From the NCBI GenBank assembly GCA_900170005.1, contig LT827128.1, forward strand, positions 2,042,168 through 2,106,167: DNA of 64,000 nucleotides, in the 5' to 3' direction. Below, in pieces: positions 3,423-9,990 of the stretch. The stretch's first letter is position 1; every line of letters starts with the position of its first letter. Source of the DNA: Gordonibacter massiliensis (ex Traore et al. 2017) (GTDB taxonomy: Bacteria; Actinomycetota; Coriobacteriia; Coriobacteriales; Eggerthellaceae). Below the pieces are notes generated by a model. The model was not told the origin of the DNA and did no database searches. It saw only the letters and a list, made by a program, of their open reading frames with translations. The translations under genes were made by a program, and so were the position numbers.

Positions 3423-5036
3423 TCATCCCTCCAGATCGTGCAACATGTCCAGCAGCTCCTGGCGCTTGTGGATGTCGAGTTTCGTGTAGATGTGTTTCGC
3501 GTGGGTGCGCACGGTGTTCTCGCTGATCACCAGCCGCTCGGCTATGCTCGCCATGCTGTTGCCGCGCGCGATGAGCTCCATGACCTCGGTCTCGCGCGTT
3601 GACAGGCCGTAGGCCTCCTGCAAATCGCGGCACTGCTTGGACGTGCGGTCGCGGATGGTGCCGGCGTCGTCCGAGGCGGAAGGTCGGTTGCGGCGCTTCT
3701 TCGGCACCGGCTTGACGGACGGGGCAGCGTTCGCGCCCCCGCCCTCGCCCGCAGCGTCGGGCGATCCCTTGGGCATCCGCACGGCGTAGTGTTCGATGCG
3801 CGGCGCGCGCGTCGAGTCGAGGGGCAGGAACTCGATGGGATCCGCCGTGACGGTGCCTTTGGACGCCACCGCCTTGAACAGGGTGCCCGTGGAGGCCAGC
3901 AGCGTGATGCCCAGCACGTAGCTCGACACCATGGCCACGAAGAACAGCCAGTCGAACCCGTCCACCGAGACGAAGTCGCTCACCCACCCCAGCAAAAAAC
4001 CCACGGCCTGCATGAGGTACACCACGGCGCCGAAGAACGCGTAGATGAACACCGGGTTGATGCCTCGGTCGCGCGACACCTGCGCGCACTGCATCATCAT
4101 GAGCATGAGAACGAGCGAGAACACCATGTACGTGAACGCCGCGAACAGGTTCAAATAGCCCGCGCCCAGAAACGGCAGCAGCAAGAAGCCGGTGATGACC
4201 AGCGGATACACCACGCGAAACACCGACGTGAGCCCTAGGCGGAAGCTCATGCGCCTCCATAGCAGCAGCAGCACCGCCGCCGACACGAACGAACCCAGCA
4301 TGGACGCGCTGTTCACCACGAGGCTGATCTCCTGGTGCAAAAGCGCGATGCCGCGGATGACGCCGCTGGCGAACGCGAGCGACCCCACGCAGAGAGCGCT
4401 GCGCCAGTAATCGGCCACCACCTGGCGGTACACCTGCGGGTGGTCTCGCGGCACATCCTCGAACATGGGTTGGTCCATGCGCATCTCGCGCACCGAAAGC
4501 GCGATGCACAGACCGCACAACGGCACGAACACGAGCGGTACGAGAAACGCCGTGAGCGCGATGGGCACCAGATACAGCGCGAAGTAGATGAACGGGGCGA
4601 TGGCCGTGCCCACCACGAGCCGCACGTTGCCTTGGGCCGGCGGCAGCGACGCGAAGTAGCGCTGCCACAGCATGAACATGCCCGCGCACCCAATACCCAG
4701 CAGCACGCCGCCCGCGGCCACAAGCGCAAGCGCCGCCTCGAAGACGTACATGGCCCCGATAAGGCACGCCGATCCGGCAAACACGAGCAGCGCGCTCAGG
4801 CTCACCATCATGCGCCGAGCGGCGCGGGGAAAGCGGTACGACCCCACGGTGCTCGCCACGAACGCGCCCCAAAACGCGAGCGACTGCGCGAGGAAGAACG
4901 TGAGCGTGACCTCCGCCGTCTGGAACTCCATCGGCAGAAACGGGAACACGCCGCCCCAGATGGACGTGGCGTTCACCGTGAGGAAGCACGCGTACCCCCA
5001 ACTGGACACGTGCGTATGCGCCGCGCTGCCGCTCAC
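3423..5036 (-). CDS. Multi-pass membrane regulator with C-terminal LuxR DNA-binding domain (first of three)
   Basis: A 537-residue protein whose first about 400 residues form roughly twelve hydrophobic segments, laid out like a transporter, and whose last about 65 residues are a LuxR-type helix-turn-helix (LSTRETEVMELIARG, then ISENTVRTHAKHIYTKL). A charged linker of about 60 residues joins them. It is transcribed away from the molybdopterin oxidoreductase cluster starting at 5264, with 227 bases between, so it probably senses something in or across the membrane and controls that cluster. Proteins of this shape are abundant in Eggerthellaceae. Ligand and mechanism are unknown. Two relatives with the same arrangement are at 22175 and 48168. 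Confidence 0.88.
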   Translation of the reverse strand: MSGSAAHTHVSSWGYACFLTVNATSIWGGVFPFLPMEFQTAEVTLTFFLAQSLAFWGAFVASTVGSYRFPRAARRMMVSLSALLVFAGSACLIGAMYVFEAALALVAAGGVLLGIGCAGMFMLWQRYFASLPPAQGNVRLVVGTAIAPFIYFALYLVPIALTAFLVPLVFVPLCGLCIALSVREMRMDQPMFEDVPRDHPQVYRQVVADYWRSALCVGSLAFASGVIRGIALLHQEISLVVNSASMLGSFVSAAVLLLLWRRMSFRLGLTSVFRVVYPLVITGFLLLPFLGAGYLNLFAAFTYMVFSLVLMLMMMQCAQVSRDRGINPVFIYAFFGAVVYLMQAVGFLLGWVSDFVSVDGFDWLFFVAMVSSYVLGITLLASTGTLFKAVASKGTVTADPIEFLPLDSTRAPRIEHYAVRMPKGSPDAAGEGGGANAAPSVKPVPKKRRNRPSASDDAGTIRDRTSKQCRDLQEAYGLSTRETEVMELIARGNSMASIAERLVISENTVRTHAKHIYTKLDIHKRQELLDMLHDLEG

Positions 5037-5263: not shown

Positions 5264-7684
5264 ATGGCATTGAACGAAGCAGCGACGCTGTCGCGCCGCA
5301 CGTTCGTGAAGGGCTCGCTCGCCGGGCTCGCGCTGGCCGGCGCCGCCGGAGGCGCGCTGTACGGCTGCTCGCCGAAGAGCGAGGGCGACGCCAAGAAGGA
5401 CGGGGGCGCCGCAGCGGCCAACGACGAGATTGTCTGGAGCCAGTGCGTGGTCAACTGCGGCGGCTCGTGCGTGCTGCGCTGGCACGTGCAGGACGGCAAG
5501 ATCGTCTACGCCGAGACCGACAACGTGGGCGACGCCGAGGGCCTGCAGGCGCGCGCCTGCCTGCGCGGCCGCACCATCCGCCGCTGGATCAACTCGCCCG
5601 ACCGCCTCATGCACCCCATGAAGCGTGCGGGCAAGCGCGGCGAGAACAAGTTCGAGCAGATCAGCTGGGACGAGGCGTACCAGGGCATCGCCGACGCCCT
5701 CAAGGACACCATCGACAAGTACGGCAACGAGGCCGTGTACATGAACTACGGCAGCGGCGTGGCCACCGCCACGAGCCGCCTGTTCCCGCGCCTGGCCAAC
5801 CTCATGGGCGGCTACCTGAAGAGCTACGCCGACTACTCCACGAACATGATGCAGTCGGGCATGCCCTACACCTACGGCGACAAGTGCAACCCCTACGACA
5901 GCGTGTACGCCTCGTCCATGTCCGAGGCCGAGAACTCCGACCTCGTCATCATGTTCGGCAACAGCCCGGCCGACACGCGCATGGGCGGCGCCAACATCGT
6001 GTACGACTTCGAGAAGGTGCGCGAAGCCGGCGCGAAGATCGTCAACATCGACTATCGCCTGAACGAGACGAGCTCGGGCCACCCCGACGAGTGGCTGCCC
6101 ATCCGCACGGGCACCGACGCGGCCCTCGTGAACGCCATCGCGCATGAGCTGATCGCGAACGACAAGGTGAACAAGGAGTTCTTGGACAAGTACTGCGTGG
6201 GCTACGACGACGACACCATGCCCGAGTCCGCCAAGGGCCAGAACAAGTCCTACAAAGACTACATCATGGGCACCGGCTACGACATGGTGGAGAAGACCCC
6301 CGAGTGGGCTGCCCCCATCACGCAGATCCCGGCAGACCGCATCCGCCAGCTCGCCGCCGACATCGCCGCGTCCAAGGCGCTGTTCGTGGTGCAGGGCTGG
6401 GGCCCGCAGCGCCACAATAACGGCGAGAACACGTCGCGCGCCATCTGCATGCTGCCCATCCTCACCGGCATGATCGGCAAGCCCGGCACGAACACGGGCA
6501 TGCGCGAGGCCGAGCCGGGCGGTATCCTGGGCAGCCTGCCCAAGGGCGACAACCCGGTGAAGACCGCCATCAACTGCTACCAGTGGCTCAACGCCGCCGA
6601 CCACGGCGAGCAGATGACCGCCGCCAAGGACGGCGTGCGCGGCGCCGACAAGCTGTCCACCGGCATCAAGTTCCTGTGGAACTACGGCGGCAACTGCATC
6701 ACGAACCAGCACTCCGACATCAACCTCGTGCACGACCTGCTGCAGGACGAGAGCAAGCTCGAGCACATCGTGGTCATCGACACGGTCATGACCGATTCGG
6801 CCAAGTACGCCGACTTCCTGCTGCCCGACGCCATGCGCGCCGAGCAGATGCACATGGCCGCCAACGGCTACGCCGAGTACTACAACGGCGTCGTGGTGGG
6901 CGGACCAGCTCAGGACGCCCCGGGCGAGGCCATGAAAGAGTACGACATCATGTCCGGCATCGCCGACAAGCTGGGCCTGAAGGACGCCTTCACCGAGGGC
7001 AAGTCGCAGGAGGAGTGGATCGAGGAGATCTACAAGAAGTCCGCCGAGAAAGACGGCAACATGCCCAGCTGGGACGAGATCAAGGCCCAGGGCCACTACA
7101 AGCGCGAGCTCGACCCGGTCATCGGCCTGGCCGACTTCATCGCCGACCCCGCGAAGACCCCGCTCGAGACGCCCTCGGGCAAGATCGAGATCTACGCCGA
7201 GCGCCTGGCCGAGGCGGCGGGCAAGCTGGAGCTGGCCGAAGGCGACGTCGTCACCCCCATCCCCGTGTTCGACCCGGGCTACCTGGGCTACGGCAGCACG
7301 ACCGAGGAGCATCCGCTGTACTGCTCCGGCTTCCACTACAAGGCCCGCACGCACTCCTCCTACGGCGGAGTCGACGAACTCAAGCAGGCGTGCCGCCAGC
7401 AGATGTGGATCAACCCGATGGACGCGGAGAGCCGCGGCATCGCCAACGGCGATATGTGCTCCGTGACGAGCCCCGTGGGCGAACTGCGCATCGAGGCCAA
7501 GGTCACGCCGCGCATCATCCCCGGCACCGTGGGCATTCCGCAAGGCGCGTGGCACGATGCCGACATGGCCGGCGACCGCGTCGACAAGGGCGGCTGCATC
7601 AACACCATCACACCCTACCATCCCTCGCCGCTCGCGAAGGGCAACGGCGTGCATTCGCTCATCGTCCAAGTAGCGAAAGCGTAA
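5264..7684 (+). CDS. Secreted molybdopterin oxidoreductase, catalytic subunit (DMSO reductase family)
   Basis: An 806-residue enzyme of the DMSO reductase family, probably reducing an organic or inorganic acceptor outside the membrane. Residues 1-35 are a Tat signal with R11 R12 in LSRRTFVKG, a hydrophobic run and a Cys (ALYGC). A [4Fe-4S] site follows: CVVNCGGSC then ARACLRGR about 27 residues later. The C-terminal part (TTEEHPLYC, IPQGAWHDAD) is the dinucleotide-binding domain. ATG at 5264 is preceded by AGAAGGAGGG; an in-frame ATG at 5228 would break the Tat signal layout. It leads a cluster with two iron-sulfur subunits and an anchor. The substrate cannot be told from sequence. Needs mogA/moeA products for cofactor. 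Confidence 0.9.
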   Translation: MALNEAATLSRRTFVKGSLAGLALAGAAGGALYGCSPKSEGDAKKDGGAAAANDEIVWSQCVVNCGGSCVLRWHVQDGKIVYAETDNVGDAEGLQARACLRGRTIRRWINSPDRLMHPMKRAGKRGENKFEQISWDEAYQGIADALKDTIDKYGNEAVYMNYGSGVATATSRLFPRLANLMGGYLKSYADYSTNMMQSGMPYTYGDKCNPYDSVYASSMSEAENSDLVIMFGNSPADTRMGGANIVYDFEKVREAGAKIVNIDYRLNETSSGHPDEWLPIRTGTDAALVNAIAHELIANDKVNKEFLDKYCVGYDDDTMPESAKGQNKSYKDYIMGTGYDMVEKTPEWAAPITQIPADRIRQLAADIAASKALFVVQGWGPQRHNNGENTSRAICMLPILTGMIGKPGTNTGMREAEPGGILGSLPKGDNPVKTAINCYQWLNAADHGEQMTAAKDGVRGADKLSTGIKFLWNYGGNCITNQHSDINLVHDLLQDESKLEHIVVIDTVMTDSAKYADFLLPDAMRAEQMHMAANGYAEYYNGVVVGGPAQDAPGEAMKEYDIMSGIADKLGLKDAFTEGKSQEEWIEEIYKKSAEKDGNMPSWDEIKAQGHYKRELDPVIGLADFIADPAKTPLETPSGKIEIYAERLAEAAGKLELAEGDVVTPIPVFDPGYLGYGSTTEEHPLYCSGFHYKARTHSSYGGVDELKQACRQQMWINPMDAESRGIANGDMCSVTSPVGELRIEAKVTPRIIPGTVGIPQGAWHDADMAGDRVDKGGCINTITPYHPSPLAKGNGVHSLIVQVAKA

Positions 7685-7699
7685 AGGAGGAACGCAACC

Positions 7700-8338
7700 A
7701 TGACCCAGTACGGTTTCTATTTCGACAGCGCGCGCTGCACGGGCTGCAAGACCTGCGAGATGGCGTGCAAGGACTACAAGGACCTGCCTTCGACCATCGC
7801 GTTCCGCAAGGTGTACGACTACGAGGGCGGCTCGTGGACCGACGCGGGCGACGGCGCCTACACCTCCGACACGTTCGCCTACCACGTGTCGCTGGCCTGC
7901 AACCACTGCGCCATGCCGGCGTGCATGGCCAAGTGCCCGTCGGGCGCCATCGAGAAGGACGGCAAGACCGGCCTCGTGCATATCGACCAAGAGAAGTGCA
8001 CGGGTGCGGGCGTGTGCGTGACCACGTGCCCCTACAACGTGCCCACCTTGGATGCGGAGACGAAAAAGGGCGTGAAGTGCGACGGCTGCGCCGACCGCGT
8101 GGCCGCGGGCGAGAAGCCCATCTGCGTGGAGTCGTGCCCGGTGCGCGCCCTCGAGTGGGGCGACATCGAGGAGCTGCGCGCGGCTCACAAGGGCACCGTG
8201 GCCGGCATCGCCCCCATGCCCTCGCCGGACGAGACCACGCCGTCCATCGCCATCAACCCCTGCCCCGCCGCCAAGGATCCCGGCGACACCACGGGCATGA
8301 TCGTGAACGAGAAGGAAGTCACGAACGTTCCGGCGTAA
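7700..8338 (+). CDS. Four-cluster ferredoxin subunit (DmsB-like), first copy, with altered cluster motif
   Basis: A 212-residue electron-transfer subunit that should carry electrons between the membrane anchor and the molybdopterin subunit, 15 bases downstream of it with an AAAGGAGG ribosome site. Cysteine groups: C13-C16-C19-C23; C67-C70-C75-C79; C100, C106, C110; C127-C130 with C142 and C146. In the third group the expected second cysteine is alanine (A103, KCTGAGVCVTTCP; codon GCG). The paralogue at 8511 keeps the full motif at this point. NarH has Trp here and holds a [3Fe-4S] cluster, so the same may apply. Otherwise the protein is full length and typical. Confidence 0.9.
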   Translation: MTQYGFYFDSARCTGCKTCEMACKDYKDLPSTIAFRKVYDYEGGSWTDAGDGAYTSDTFAYHVSLACNHCAMPACMAKCPSGAIEKDGKTGLVHIDQEKCTGAGVCVTTCPYNVPTLDAETKKGVKCDGCADRVAAGEKPICVESCPVRALEWGDIEELRAAHKGTVAGIAPMPSPDETTPSIAINPCPAAKDPGDTTGMIVNEKEVTNVPA

Positions 8339-8351
8339 CAGCTGACCATCC

Positions 8352-8441
8352 GCGGATACCCGGCGCGCGCAATCGAGCACCGGGTATCCGCACCCCATCT
8401 CTGAAGCGGCCGCGCCCCTCCCTCCCCGGCGCGGCCGCTTC
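8352..8441. terminator. Two strong hairpins between the iron-sulfur genes
   Basis: First hairpin: perfect 12-bp arms 8352-8363 and 8380-8391 (GCGGATACCCGG). Second: perfect 14-bp arms 8403-8416 and 8428-8441. Neither has a long T run. A TATACT sequence directly follows at about 8445-8450 and could be a -10 box for the second iron-sulfur gene. The pair may end or dampen the first transcript and restart a second. Confidence 0.55.
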
Positions 8442-8510
8442 CGGTATACTGGAGCGGGATGCCCGTGCTCGAAGCGCGCGGGCACGGGGTAGGTTGGCAG
8501 AGAGCTGCTC

Positions 8511-9134
8511 ATGGCGTTCGGATTCTTCTTCGACAACGCGCGCTGCACCGGGTGCAAGACCTGCGAGATGGCGTGCAAGGACTACCGCGACCTCGGCCCC
8601 GAGGCCACGTTCCGGCGCGTCATCGACTACGAGGGCGGCACCTGGAACGCGCCGTCCGGCACGGAAACCGCCGTGCCCGAAAACGTGTTCGCCTACCACC
8701 TGTCCCTCGCCTGCAACCATTGCGGCGACCCCGCTTGCACGCACGTGTGCCCCACCGGGGCCATGCACAAAGACGACCAGGGCCTCGTGTGGCCCGACGA
8801 GCGCAAATGCATCGGCTGCGGCTACTGCACCATGGCCTGCCCCTACCACGCCCCCTTCATCGACCAGCGCCTGAAGAAGAGCTCGAAATGCGACGGCTGC
8901 CGCGCGCGCCTGGCCGAAGGGCTGGCCCCCGTGTGCGTGGAAGCGTGCCCCGTGCGCGCGCTCGACTACGGCGACCCCGCCGAGCTGGTCGTGCGGCATC
9001 CCGGCGCCGTGCGCTCCATCCTGCCGCTTCCGGCGGAGGACGCCACGTGGCCCAACCTGTTCATCCTCCCGTCCCCCGCCGCTGCATTGGCGGCCAAAGC
9101 GGGCGGACACATCGCGAACCGCGAGGAGATCTAA
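8511..9134 (+). CDS. Four-cluster ferredoxin subunit (DmsB-like), second copy
   Basis: A 207-residue paralogue of the preceding iron-sulfur subunit; the first 20 residues are almost the same (NARCTGCKTCEMACKDY). All four cysteine groups are complete, including KCIGCGYCTMACPYH where the first copy has lost a cysteine. It is one base from the membrane anchor gene at 9136, so it is the better candidate for direct contact with the anchor. The start at 8511 has only a modest ribosome site (GAGAG); a longer start at 8459 is in another frame. Having two such subunits with one catalytic gene is unusual. Confidence 0.9.
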   Translation: MAFGFFFDNARCTGCKTCEMACKDYRDLGPEATFRRVIDYEGGTWNAPSGTETAVPENVFAYHLSLACNHCGDPACTHVCPTGAMHKDDQGLVWPDERKCIGCGYCTMACPYHAPFIDQRLKKSSKCDGCRARLAEGLAPVCVEACPVRALDYGDPAELVVRHPGAVRSILPLPAEDATWPNLFILPSPAAALAAKAGGHIANREEI

Positions 9135-9135
9135 C

Positions 9136-9990
9136 ATGACCAGCGGCTTCGACGAGCTCTCCCTCGCGGTGTTCACCACGCTCGCCCCGGCGGGCACCGT
9201 CGCGTTCGTCGTGCTGGCGCTGGCCCGCCTGCTCTCGCGCGACCACGACGCCGCCGTGCGCATCGACCGCCTGATCGCGCTTCCGTTCTCCGTGGCGCTC
9301 GTGGGCTTCATCGCATCGGCGACGCACCTGGGAACGCCGGCGAACGCGCTGCACGTGTTCTCGGGCGTGGGGCGCTCTCCCCTGTCGAACGAGGTGCTGT
9401 CGGCCGTGGCCTTCCTGCTTTTGGTGGGGTCGTACTGGATGATGGCCTTCAAGCAGCGCTTTCCCGACGCCGTGGCGAAGCCGTGGCTCGTGCTGTCCTG
9501 CGTGGCCGGCGTGGCGCTCGTGACCTGCACGTCGCTCGCCTACGCCGTGGACACCGTGCCCACCTGGAACACCTGGTACGCGCCGGCCAACCTCTGGTTC
9601 TCCGCGCTGCTCGCAGGGCCCGTGCTGGGGTTGCTGTTCCTGCATATGGCACGCGTGCCGCTGCGCGGGGGAGGCGCCGCCCTGGTGGCGGTGAGCGTCG
9701 CCGCGCTCGCAGCCGGTACGGTCGTGCTCGCCCTGCACCAGCAGAGTTTGGGCGGCGTGGCGAACAACGAGCTGGTGGCCAACGTCCTCGCCCCCAACTA
9801 CGGAGGAGCCATCGCGTTCCACGCGCTTGCCGGCGCCATCGGCTGCGCATGCGCCGCGCTCTCGCTGCGACGCCGCGCAAGCGGCCAGACCGCCGTGATC
9901 CTGAGCGGCGCGGCCGCGCTCTTGCTGCTGGTGGCCGTGTTCGTCACCCGCGTCGAGTTCTACCAGCTCCACATGACGGTGGGGTTCTAA
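9136..9990 (+). CDS. Membrane anchor subunit (DmsC-like)
   Basis: A 284-residue hydrophobic protein with about eight membrane segments, matching the DmsC family (usually 280-290 residues). It would anchor the reductase to the cytoplasmic membrane and oxidise menaquinol, passing electrons to the iron-sulfur subunit. The ATG follows the upstream stop by one base with CGAGGAG as ribosome site, so translation is probably coupled. Features include the early AGTVAFVVLALARLL helix, ATHLGTPANALHVF, and a C-terminal VEFYQLHMTVGF. No haem-ligand pattern could be assigned. It ends the cluster. Confidence 0.88.
   Translation: MTSGFDELSLAVFTTLAPAGTVAFVVLALARLLSRDHDAAVRIDRLIALPFSVALVGFIASATHLGTPANALHVFSGVGRSPLSNEVLSAVAFLLLVGSYWMMAFKQRFPDAVAKPWLVLSCVAGVALVTCTSLAYAVDTVPTWNTWYAPANLWFSALLAGPVLGLLFLHMARVPLRGGGAALVAVSVAALAAGTVVLALHQQSLGGVANNELVANVLAPNYGGAIAFHALAGAIGCACAALSLRRRASGQTAVILSGAAALLLLVAVFVTRVEFYQLHMTVGF

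Follow-up and report, generated by a model that had tools for sequence, protein, structure and literature searches.

An altered FS4 site and a predicted lipoprotein catalytic subunit suggest a rearranged electron-delivery route in a DMSO-reductase-type operon of Gordonibacter massiliensis

In the E. coli K-12 record, the group III cysteines of DmsB, the iron-sulfur subunit of DmsABC, are residues 99, 102, 105 and 109. Pro80, Ser81, Cys102 and Tyr104 of this protein have been assigned to the DmsC interface and the menaquinol site. The reference list of PMC8076601, judged by its titles, includes work on an engineered [3Fe-4S] cluster of DmsB that interacts with the menaquinol site, and no paper on DmsB Cys102 mutants was present among the literature matches listed. 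According to the excerpted text of PMC8840923, the perchlorate and nitrate reductases share the cluster-ligand pattern of EbDH, in which FS4 is a [3Fe-4S] cluster (+70 mV), and the available part of PMC8076601 assigns one [3Fe-4S] cluster each to ActB and QrcC of other NrfD-type complexes. An excerpt of PMC10413684 describes an FS3/FS4 core that links protomers of AorA. Strains of Eggerthella and Gordonibacter have 30-60 homologues of the DMSO-reductase type each, as stated in the accessible portion of PMC11574389. With such enzymes, gut bacteria of this family respire compounds of the diet and the host.

We analyzed a stretch of 64,000 nucleotides, hereafter the window, from the genome of Gordonibacter massiliensis (3.95 Mb on one contig). 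At an E-value of 1e-30 or better, 29 matches to the DmsB family were counted in this genome, a strongly expanded set of molybdoenzyme partners. In the window, the genes A, B1, B2 and C follow each other on the plus strand, and the features discussed below are:

3423-5036, minus strand: LuxR-type regulator with a long N-terminal region, divergent from the operon (PF00196)
5264-7684, plus strand: A, molybdenum catalytic subunit of the DmsA/YnfE type (TIGR02166, 983.8 bits against a cut-off of 777.7)
5366-5368, plus strand: codon of Cys35 of A, the predicted lipid-modified residue (lipobox after a twin-arginine motif)
7700-8338, plus strand: B1, DmsB-type iron-sulfur subunit of 212 amino acids with an altered FS4 site
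7934-7936, plus strand: codon of Cys79, FS4 ligand kept in B1 (assigned by homology)
7997-7999 and 8015-8017, plus strand: codons of Cys100 and Cys106, FS4 ligands kept in B1 (assigned by homology)
8006-8008, plus strand: codon GCG of Ala103, at the position of the fourth FS4 ligand (Cys102 of E. coli DmsB, by alignment)
8012-8014, plus strand: codon GTG of Val105, at the position of Tyr104 of E. coli DmsB (by alignment)
8339-8510, plus strand: long intergenic gap between B1 and B2
8511-9134, plus strand: B2, second DmsB-type subunit with a canonical CIGCGYC FS4 site (TIGR02951)
9136-9990, plus strand: C, DmsC-type membrane subunit (PF04976, 3.4e-36)

The operon thus combines a DmsA-type catalytic subunit with a DmsC-type membrane subunit, as expected of a DmsABC system. 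Against the TIGR02951 cut-off of 214.1 bits, B1 passed narrowly (215.8) and B2 scored slightly below it (209.4). Over 63 operons the median distance between B1 and B2 was 143 bp and that between A and B1 was 19; a consensus scan of the gap in the window gave no match to a promoter or terminator. The LuxR-type regulator was kept beside the operon in all 20 tandem-operon loci compared, at 71-89% identity.

The original prediction was that an alanine replaces a cluster cysteine in B1 while the neighboring paralogue keeps it, and both parts were confirmed by the translations. B1 reads ...QEKCTGAGVCVTTCPYNV..., with GCG coding for Ala103, and B2 reads ERKCIGCGYCTMACPY, with Cys at the matching position. 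B1 is 51% identical to DmsB of E. coli K-12, and in this alignment Ala103 corresponds to Cys102 and Val105 to Tyr104. In phmmer alignments the same column is occupied by Trp in NarH, as had been expected, by His in EbdB, by Ala in PcrB and by Cys in FdnH. B1 therefore has 15 of the 16 DmsB cysteines that ligate four [4Fe-4S] clusters, and it fits the pattern of a [3Fe-4S] FS4 site, in which the second Cys of group III is replaced and the other three FS4 ligands, presumably Cys79, Cys100 and Cys106 by homology, are present.

The B1 gene was found at 90-100% identity in five Gordonibacter genomes searched, including that of the window. Codon 103 was GCG in two and GTG in two of four Gordonibacter B1 genes, in each case three base changes away from TGC, and pairwise dN/dS of the window B1 against three others was about 0.13-0.32. 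A sequencing or assembly error was rejected on the three base changes together with the agreeing orthologues, and plain decay of B1 is unlikely as well. Two small indels that compensate each other could also have given rise to the GCG codon in the window. The refuting condition named beforehand, Cys in orthologues of close strains, did not occur within Gordonibacter (Ala or Val), but B1 of Adlercreutzia, a nearby group on the tree, has Cys.

To place B1 among its relatives, we compared 209 distinct B-type proteins, each with its operon context, taken from the window and from 198 loci that overlap in many cases. The loci comprised 100 regions fetched from the matches listed, 52 named loci and the short loci of the searches; they were picked by similarity to B1 and B2, mostly from Eggerthellaceae and nearby families, and are a non-random sample. 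The proteins were assigned to A-B1-B2 operons (as B1 or B2), to A-B-C operons with a single B, or to A-B-only operons lacking a C or another B within 1 kb, with ten others. Remoter families are represented among the 21 A-B-only operons, of which 18 score at least 190 bits, and so is locus L101, where a partial second B lies directly downstream. A residue other than Cys at position 103 was found in 29/63 B1, 0/66 B2, 0/49 single B and 6/21 A-B-only proteins, as well as in 1/4 proteins at contig edges and in 0/6 of the remaining ones. The replacing residues were Ala (15), Val (7), Asn (5), Ser (3), Phe (2) and one each of Thr, Glu, Gln and Pro. The other 15 ligand cysteines were complete in 208 of the 209 proteins. 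The division was sharper at position 105, where Tyr was present in 0/63 B1, 66/66 B2, 48/49 single B and 3/21 A-B-only proteins, the last three being from remoter families and the one single B without Tyr being a remote member that has Cys103 (L191). Tyr105 was absent even from the 34 B1 that keep Cys103. Since Cys is kept in 34/63 B1, the change of docking that we propose below does not require loss of the ligand.

The one protein with further cysteines missing was B1 of locus L175 (3036-3674, plus strand), in which the four FS4 ligands, and no others, are missing and the remaining twelve cysteines are present; electron entry through FS4 is therefore not general in B1. In the same locus A has no lipobox Cys, and this combination may represent a third architecture. 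Beyond the loci, 296 genomes sampled from the phylum were searched, and 12 of them had matches at 1e-45. Three of the 12, G465, G486 and G506, lie outside the family, in a different one of this phylum, and encode B1-like proteins at 2e-51 or better.

Seven positions (78, 81, 84, 85, 95, 105 and 124) are conserved both in single B and in B2 and no longer so in B1. Six of these seven are within six residues of an FS4 ligand, compared with 15 of 68 kept positions (Fisher 0.0015); this was one of eight proximity tests made in all, and with a limit of four residues the count was 3/7 (p 0.138). No enrichment of the B1-lost positions was seen near FS1-FS3 (p 0.2 or more). Regional conservation, calculated from 34 diverse matched operons out of 62, pointed the same way: the FS4 face (77-106) scored 0.53 in B1, 0.71 in B2 and 0.75 in single B. 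At the N-terminus (1-12) the values were 0.75, 0.54 and 0.69, respectively, and in region 127-165 they were 0.65, 0.58 and 0.59, with nearly equal conservation of B1 and B2 overall (0.56 and 0.55). Region 107-126 (0.46, 0.55 and 0.73) fits no partner model considered here. B2 showed no clear loss of the DmsA-facing surface, as a strict test for B2-lost positions passed only positions 1 and 171 and a relaxed one gave positions 1 and 3.

The catalytic subunit differed between operon types as well. The N-terminus of A in the window, SRRTFVKGSLAGLALAGAAGGALYGC, has a twin-arginine motif (SRRTFVKG) followed by a lipobox (LYGC) with Cys35, the arrangement of a Tat lipoprotein signal. Among the 123 operons with a long enough A, a lipobox was found in 74/78 A subunits beside a B1-type subunit (59/62 in tandem and 15/16 in A-B-only operons) and in 1/45 beside a single DmsB (Fisher 1.6e-27). 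The four misses comprise two sequences without a twin-arginine motif, one with unknown letters at this place, and L175. These counts were obtained with a lipobox pattern extended by two letters and a better selection of the twin-arginine motif, both changes made in view of a first pass, in which A subunits with the motif gave 51/61, 15/16 and 1/44 for the tandem, A-B-only and single-B operons. Shuffling the tails with the same letters gave on average 9.7/61, 2.4/15 and 0.9/44. On a quick tree of the A body (96 rows, first 60 residues removed), about 14 independent pairs with unlike B types were found, of which 13.7 on average differed in the lipobox in the same direction and none in reverse (sign test on the 14 pairs, 1.2e-4). 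The signal of A thus follows the type of B and not the ancestry of A.

The first tree of B proteins was built from 179 of 202 rows after removal of near-copies, 202 of the 209 proteins having passed the score and class limits. A strongly supported branch split B1 and the A-B-only proteins from single B and B2. The only exception was B1 of locus L196 (minus strand, from 5004), which is one of a tandem pair inside the single-B clade. Its residues 63-90 match B1 of L135 at 89% identity and no single B at more than 64%, and its flanks are closer to single B, so that a B1-type FS4 loop lies within a body of single-B type. A gene-conversion chimera appears as likely as convergence for this protein, and for this reason it was not counted as a natural replicate. 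The change between Cys and non-Cys at position 103 took four steps on the careful tree, at least three of them forced by supported branches; the AU test did not reject a single non-Cys clade (p 0.177), and several independent losses of Cys103 are likely, not proven. B2 fell into two clades among the single-B lineages (AU p 0.218), and at this value we do not claim two separate origins.

The tree of A subunits, a quick one with long-branch warnings (92 of 123 rows kept), mixed both architectures; its supported branches require the B1 label to change 16 times or more. The ancestry of the catalytic subunit does not follow the division into B1 and single B. An example is the locus of Gordonibacter sp. 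28C (L047, 4301-9200), which is identical to the window at 89% in the regulator, 92% in B1, 93% in B2 and 93% in C, and at 68% in A. The A subunit of 28C is 85-87% identical to those of Eggerthella sinensis, Enteroscipio rubneri and Gordonibacter sp. An230, and A of the window is 91-92% identical to those of three other Gordonibacter loci. Over 58 operons, distances of B1, B2 and C correlated with each other at 0.85-0.87 and with those of A at 0.64-0.75, species history contributing to these values.

B1-type subunits were also found without DmsC. Eight genomes with A-B-only operons were searched, and in five of them there was no match to DmsC: G038 (96% complete), G141 (93%), G179 (87%), G188 (86%) and G039 (81%). 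The other three have DmsC, which in G345 (L092) is on a different contig from the A-B operon. Matches to a B2 query at 1e-50 in the five genomes and in G345 were the A-B member itself, with one more B in G038 and G039, which stands beside an A of its own and is without the Tyr. Position 103 of the B1-type subunit is Ala in G038, G039 and G141 and Cys in G188 and G179. An NrfD protein is encoded in four of the five genomes, so another anchor is possible there. The next gene in five A-B operons of this type that were tested codes for a chaperone of the NarJ/TorD type (PF02613). In locus L103, A-B1 and B2-C are convergent on opposite strands, and the two halves are thus separable. In locus L160, A-B1 and a DmsC are likewise convergent on opposite strands and do not form one operon.

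These comparisons led us to an architecture to which we give a probability of roughly 60%, in which B1 is off DmsC, A-B1 is tethered by a lipid, FS4 of B1 is a [3Fe-4S] cluster and B2-C is a menaquinol module that likely feeds A-B1. B1 would partner A and no longer dock on DmsC, and its FS4, having lost the equivalents of Cys102 and Tyr104 and their neighbors, would be freed from direct contact with menaquinol and would most likely be a [3Fe-4S] cluster with Cys79, Cys100 and Cys106 as its ligands. The Tat lipoprotein anchor, and not DmsC, would keep A on the outer side of the membrane. B2, which keeps the canonical FS4 face, would form with C the menaquinol-oxidizing module, and B2-C would most likely hand electrons to A-B1. 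The residue patterns, their tie to the operon type, the switch in the signal peptide and the kept ligands are observed directly; the change of docking, the cluster type, the lipidation and the electron transfer from B2 to B1 are all features that we infer from sequence. The loss of much of the FS4 face, the loss of Tyr in spite of a kept Cys and the switch in the signal of A point to a change in the partner of B1, of which cluster tuning would be a consequence. The earlier suggestion of a different redox tuning of the two subunits understates this pattern, as the residues of the FS4 face and the signal peptide of A change too. It had also been proposed that B1 has a natural [3Fe-4S] or a lost cluster; the prediction of a [3Fe-4S] FS4 has good support from the three kept ligands, the drift of the fourth position and the Ala of PcrB, whereas full loss of the site does not apply here.

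Three other readings were considered. The two subunits could serve parallel complexes, with A-B2-C as an ordinary menaquinol enzyme and A-B1 as a dimer of its own, tethered by lipid and supplied by a different donor, with no contact between B1 and B2. Such an arrangement would account for A-B1-type operons in genomes without a match to DmsC and for the fact that most of B2 resembles the DmsB of ordinary single-B operons, and the outer-membrane DmsAB of Shewanella, which takes electrons from a cytochrome in the excerpted account of PMC11302344, offers a parallel. It does not explain why B2 is less conserved than single B at its N-terminus (0.54 vs 0.69) or why A has a lipoprotein signal, unlike A of ordinary A-B-C enzymes, and the tighter mutual correlation of B1, B2 and C also speaks against it, although species history alone could explain the latter. 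We consider parallel complexes rather unlikely. The inheritance of B1, B2 and C as one block together with the relaxed N-terminus of B2 modestly favors a series relay from B2 to B1, or a hand-off, over such complexes.

If, on the other hand, B1 bridged A and C as DmsB does, its [3Fe-4S] FS4 would only raise the potential, as in NarH; and NarH, EbdB and PcrB are indeed parts of working chains with a [3Fe-4S] FS4, as ActB and QrcC are examples with one such cluster. Pure tuning is nevertheless improbable, as it leaves without explanation the loss of Tyr105 in the 34 B1 with Cys103 and of other FS4-face residues in most B1, the presence of B1-type subunits in genomes without a DmsC match, the disappearance of the whole FS4 site in L175 and the lack of any B without Cys103 in the 49 A-B-C operons. 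Relaxed drift of a redundant duplicate that is losing FS4 would be in line with the varied residues at position 103 and with L175. We regard it as the least credible reading, very improbable in view of the ligand cysteines kept in 208/209 proteins, the dN/dS of B1 and a conservation that equals that of B2 overall and exceeds it at the N-terminus and in region 127-165. Returning to the lipid-tethered A-B1 fed by B2-C, we tentatively extend it, at somewhat less than even odds, to an Eggerthellaceae reductase of the S/N-oxide type with a wire of eight cluster sites running from menaquinol through DmsC, B2 and B1 to A; here the contact with DmsC would have moved to B2, FS4 of B1 would be internal or dispensable, and A would be exchangeable on a fixed B1-B2-C platform, as between the window and Gordonibacter sp. 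28C.

Taken together, the results suggest a rearranged electron-delivery route in a DMSO-reductase-type enzyme of a gut bacterium. The FS4 face, the second DmsB and the lipoprotein signal together provide a rule that sorts these enzymes into two membrane architectures by sequence alone. The B1 variants are natural counterparts of the classical engineered-cluster experiments on E. coli DmsB, so that evolved enzymes can be used to ask what role FS4 and the fourth ligand play at the menaquinol site.

Of the described systems, DmsABC of E. coli (and YnfFGH) has the same subunit families and shares the layout of 16 cysteines apart from one; the operon in the window differs in having two iron-sulfur subunits and an A with a Tat lipoprotein signal, and B1 lacks the equivalents of Cys102, Tyr104 and His85 of DmsB. 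PcrAB, NarGHI and EbdABC, type II enzymes with a [3Fe-4S] FS4, resemble B1 in that the second Cys of group III is replaced (by Ala in PcrB, Trp in NarH and His in EbdB), but they belong to another subfamily, have one iron-sulfur subunit per enzyme and, as given in the excerpt of PMC8840923, heme-bearing partners. The combination of a second DmsB, an altered FS4 face and a lipoprotein A was not found in a search of the open literature, within the portions of text that it returned. The filaments of AorABC and HDCR are, in the available part of PMC10413684, a precedent for electrons crossing between two four-cluster ferredoxin subunits, but they are soluble filament enzymes with other catalytic subunits and without DmsC. 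DmsEFAB of Shewanella is like the proposed A-B1 in that its DmsAB unit is fed by a cytochrome instead of DmsC; it differs in its location at the outer membrane, and the excerpted text of PMC11302344 describes no second DmsB. Thus, with the chained subunits of AorABC and HDCR and the cytochrome-fed DmsAB of Shewanella, each element of the proposed route has a precedent.
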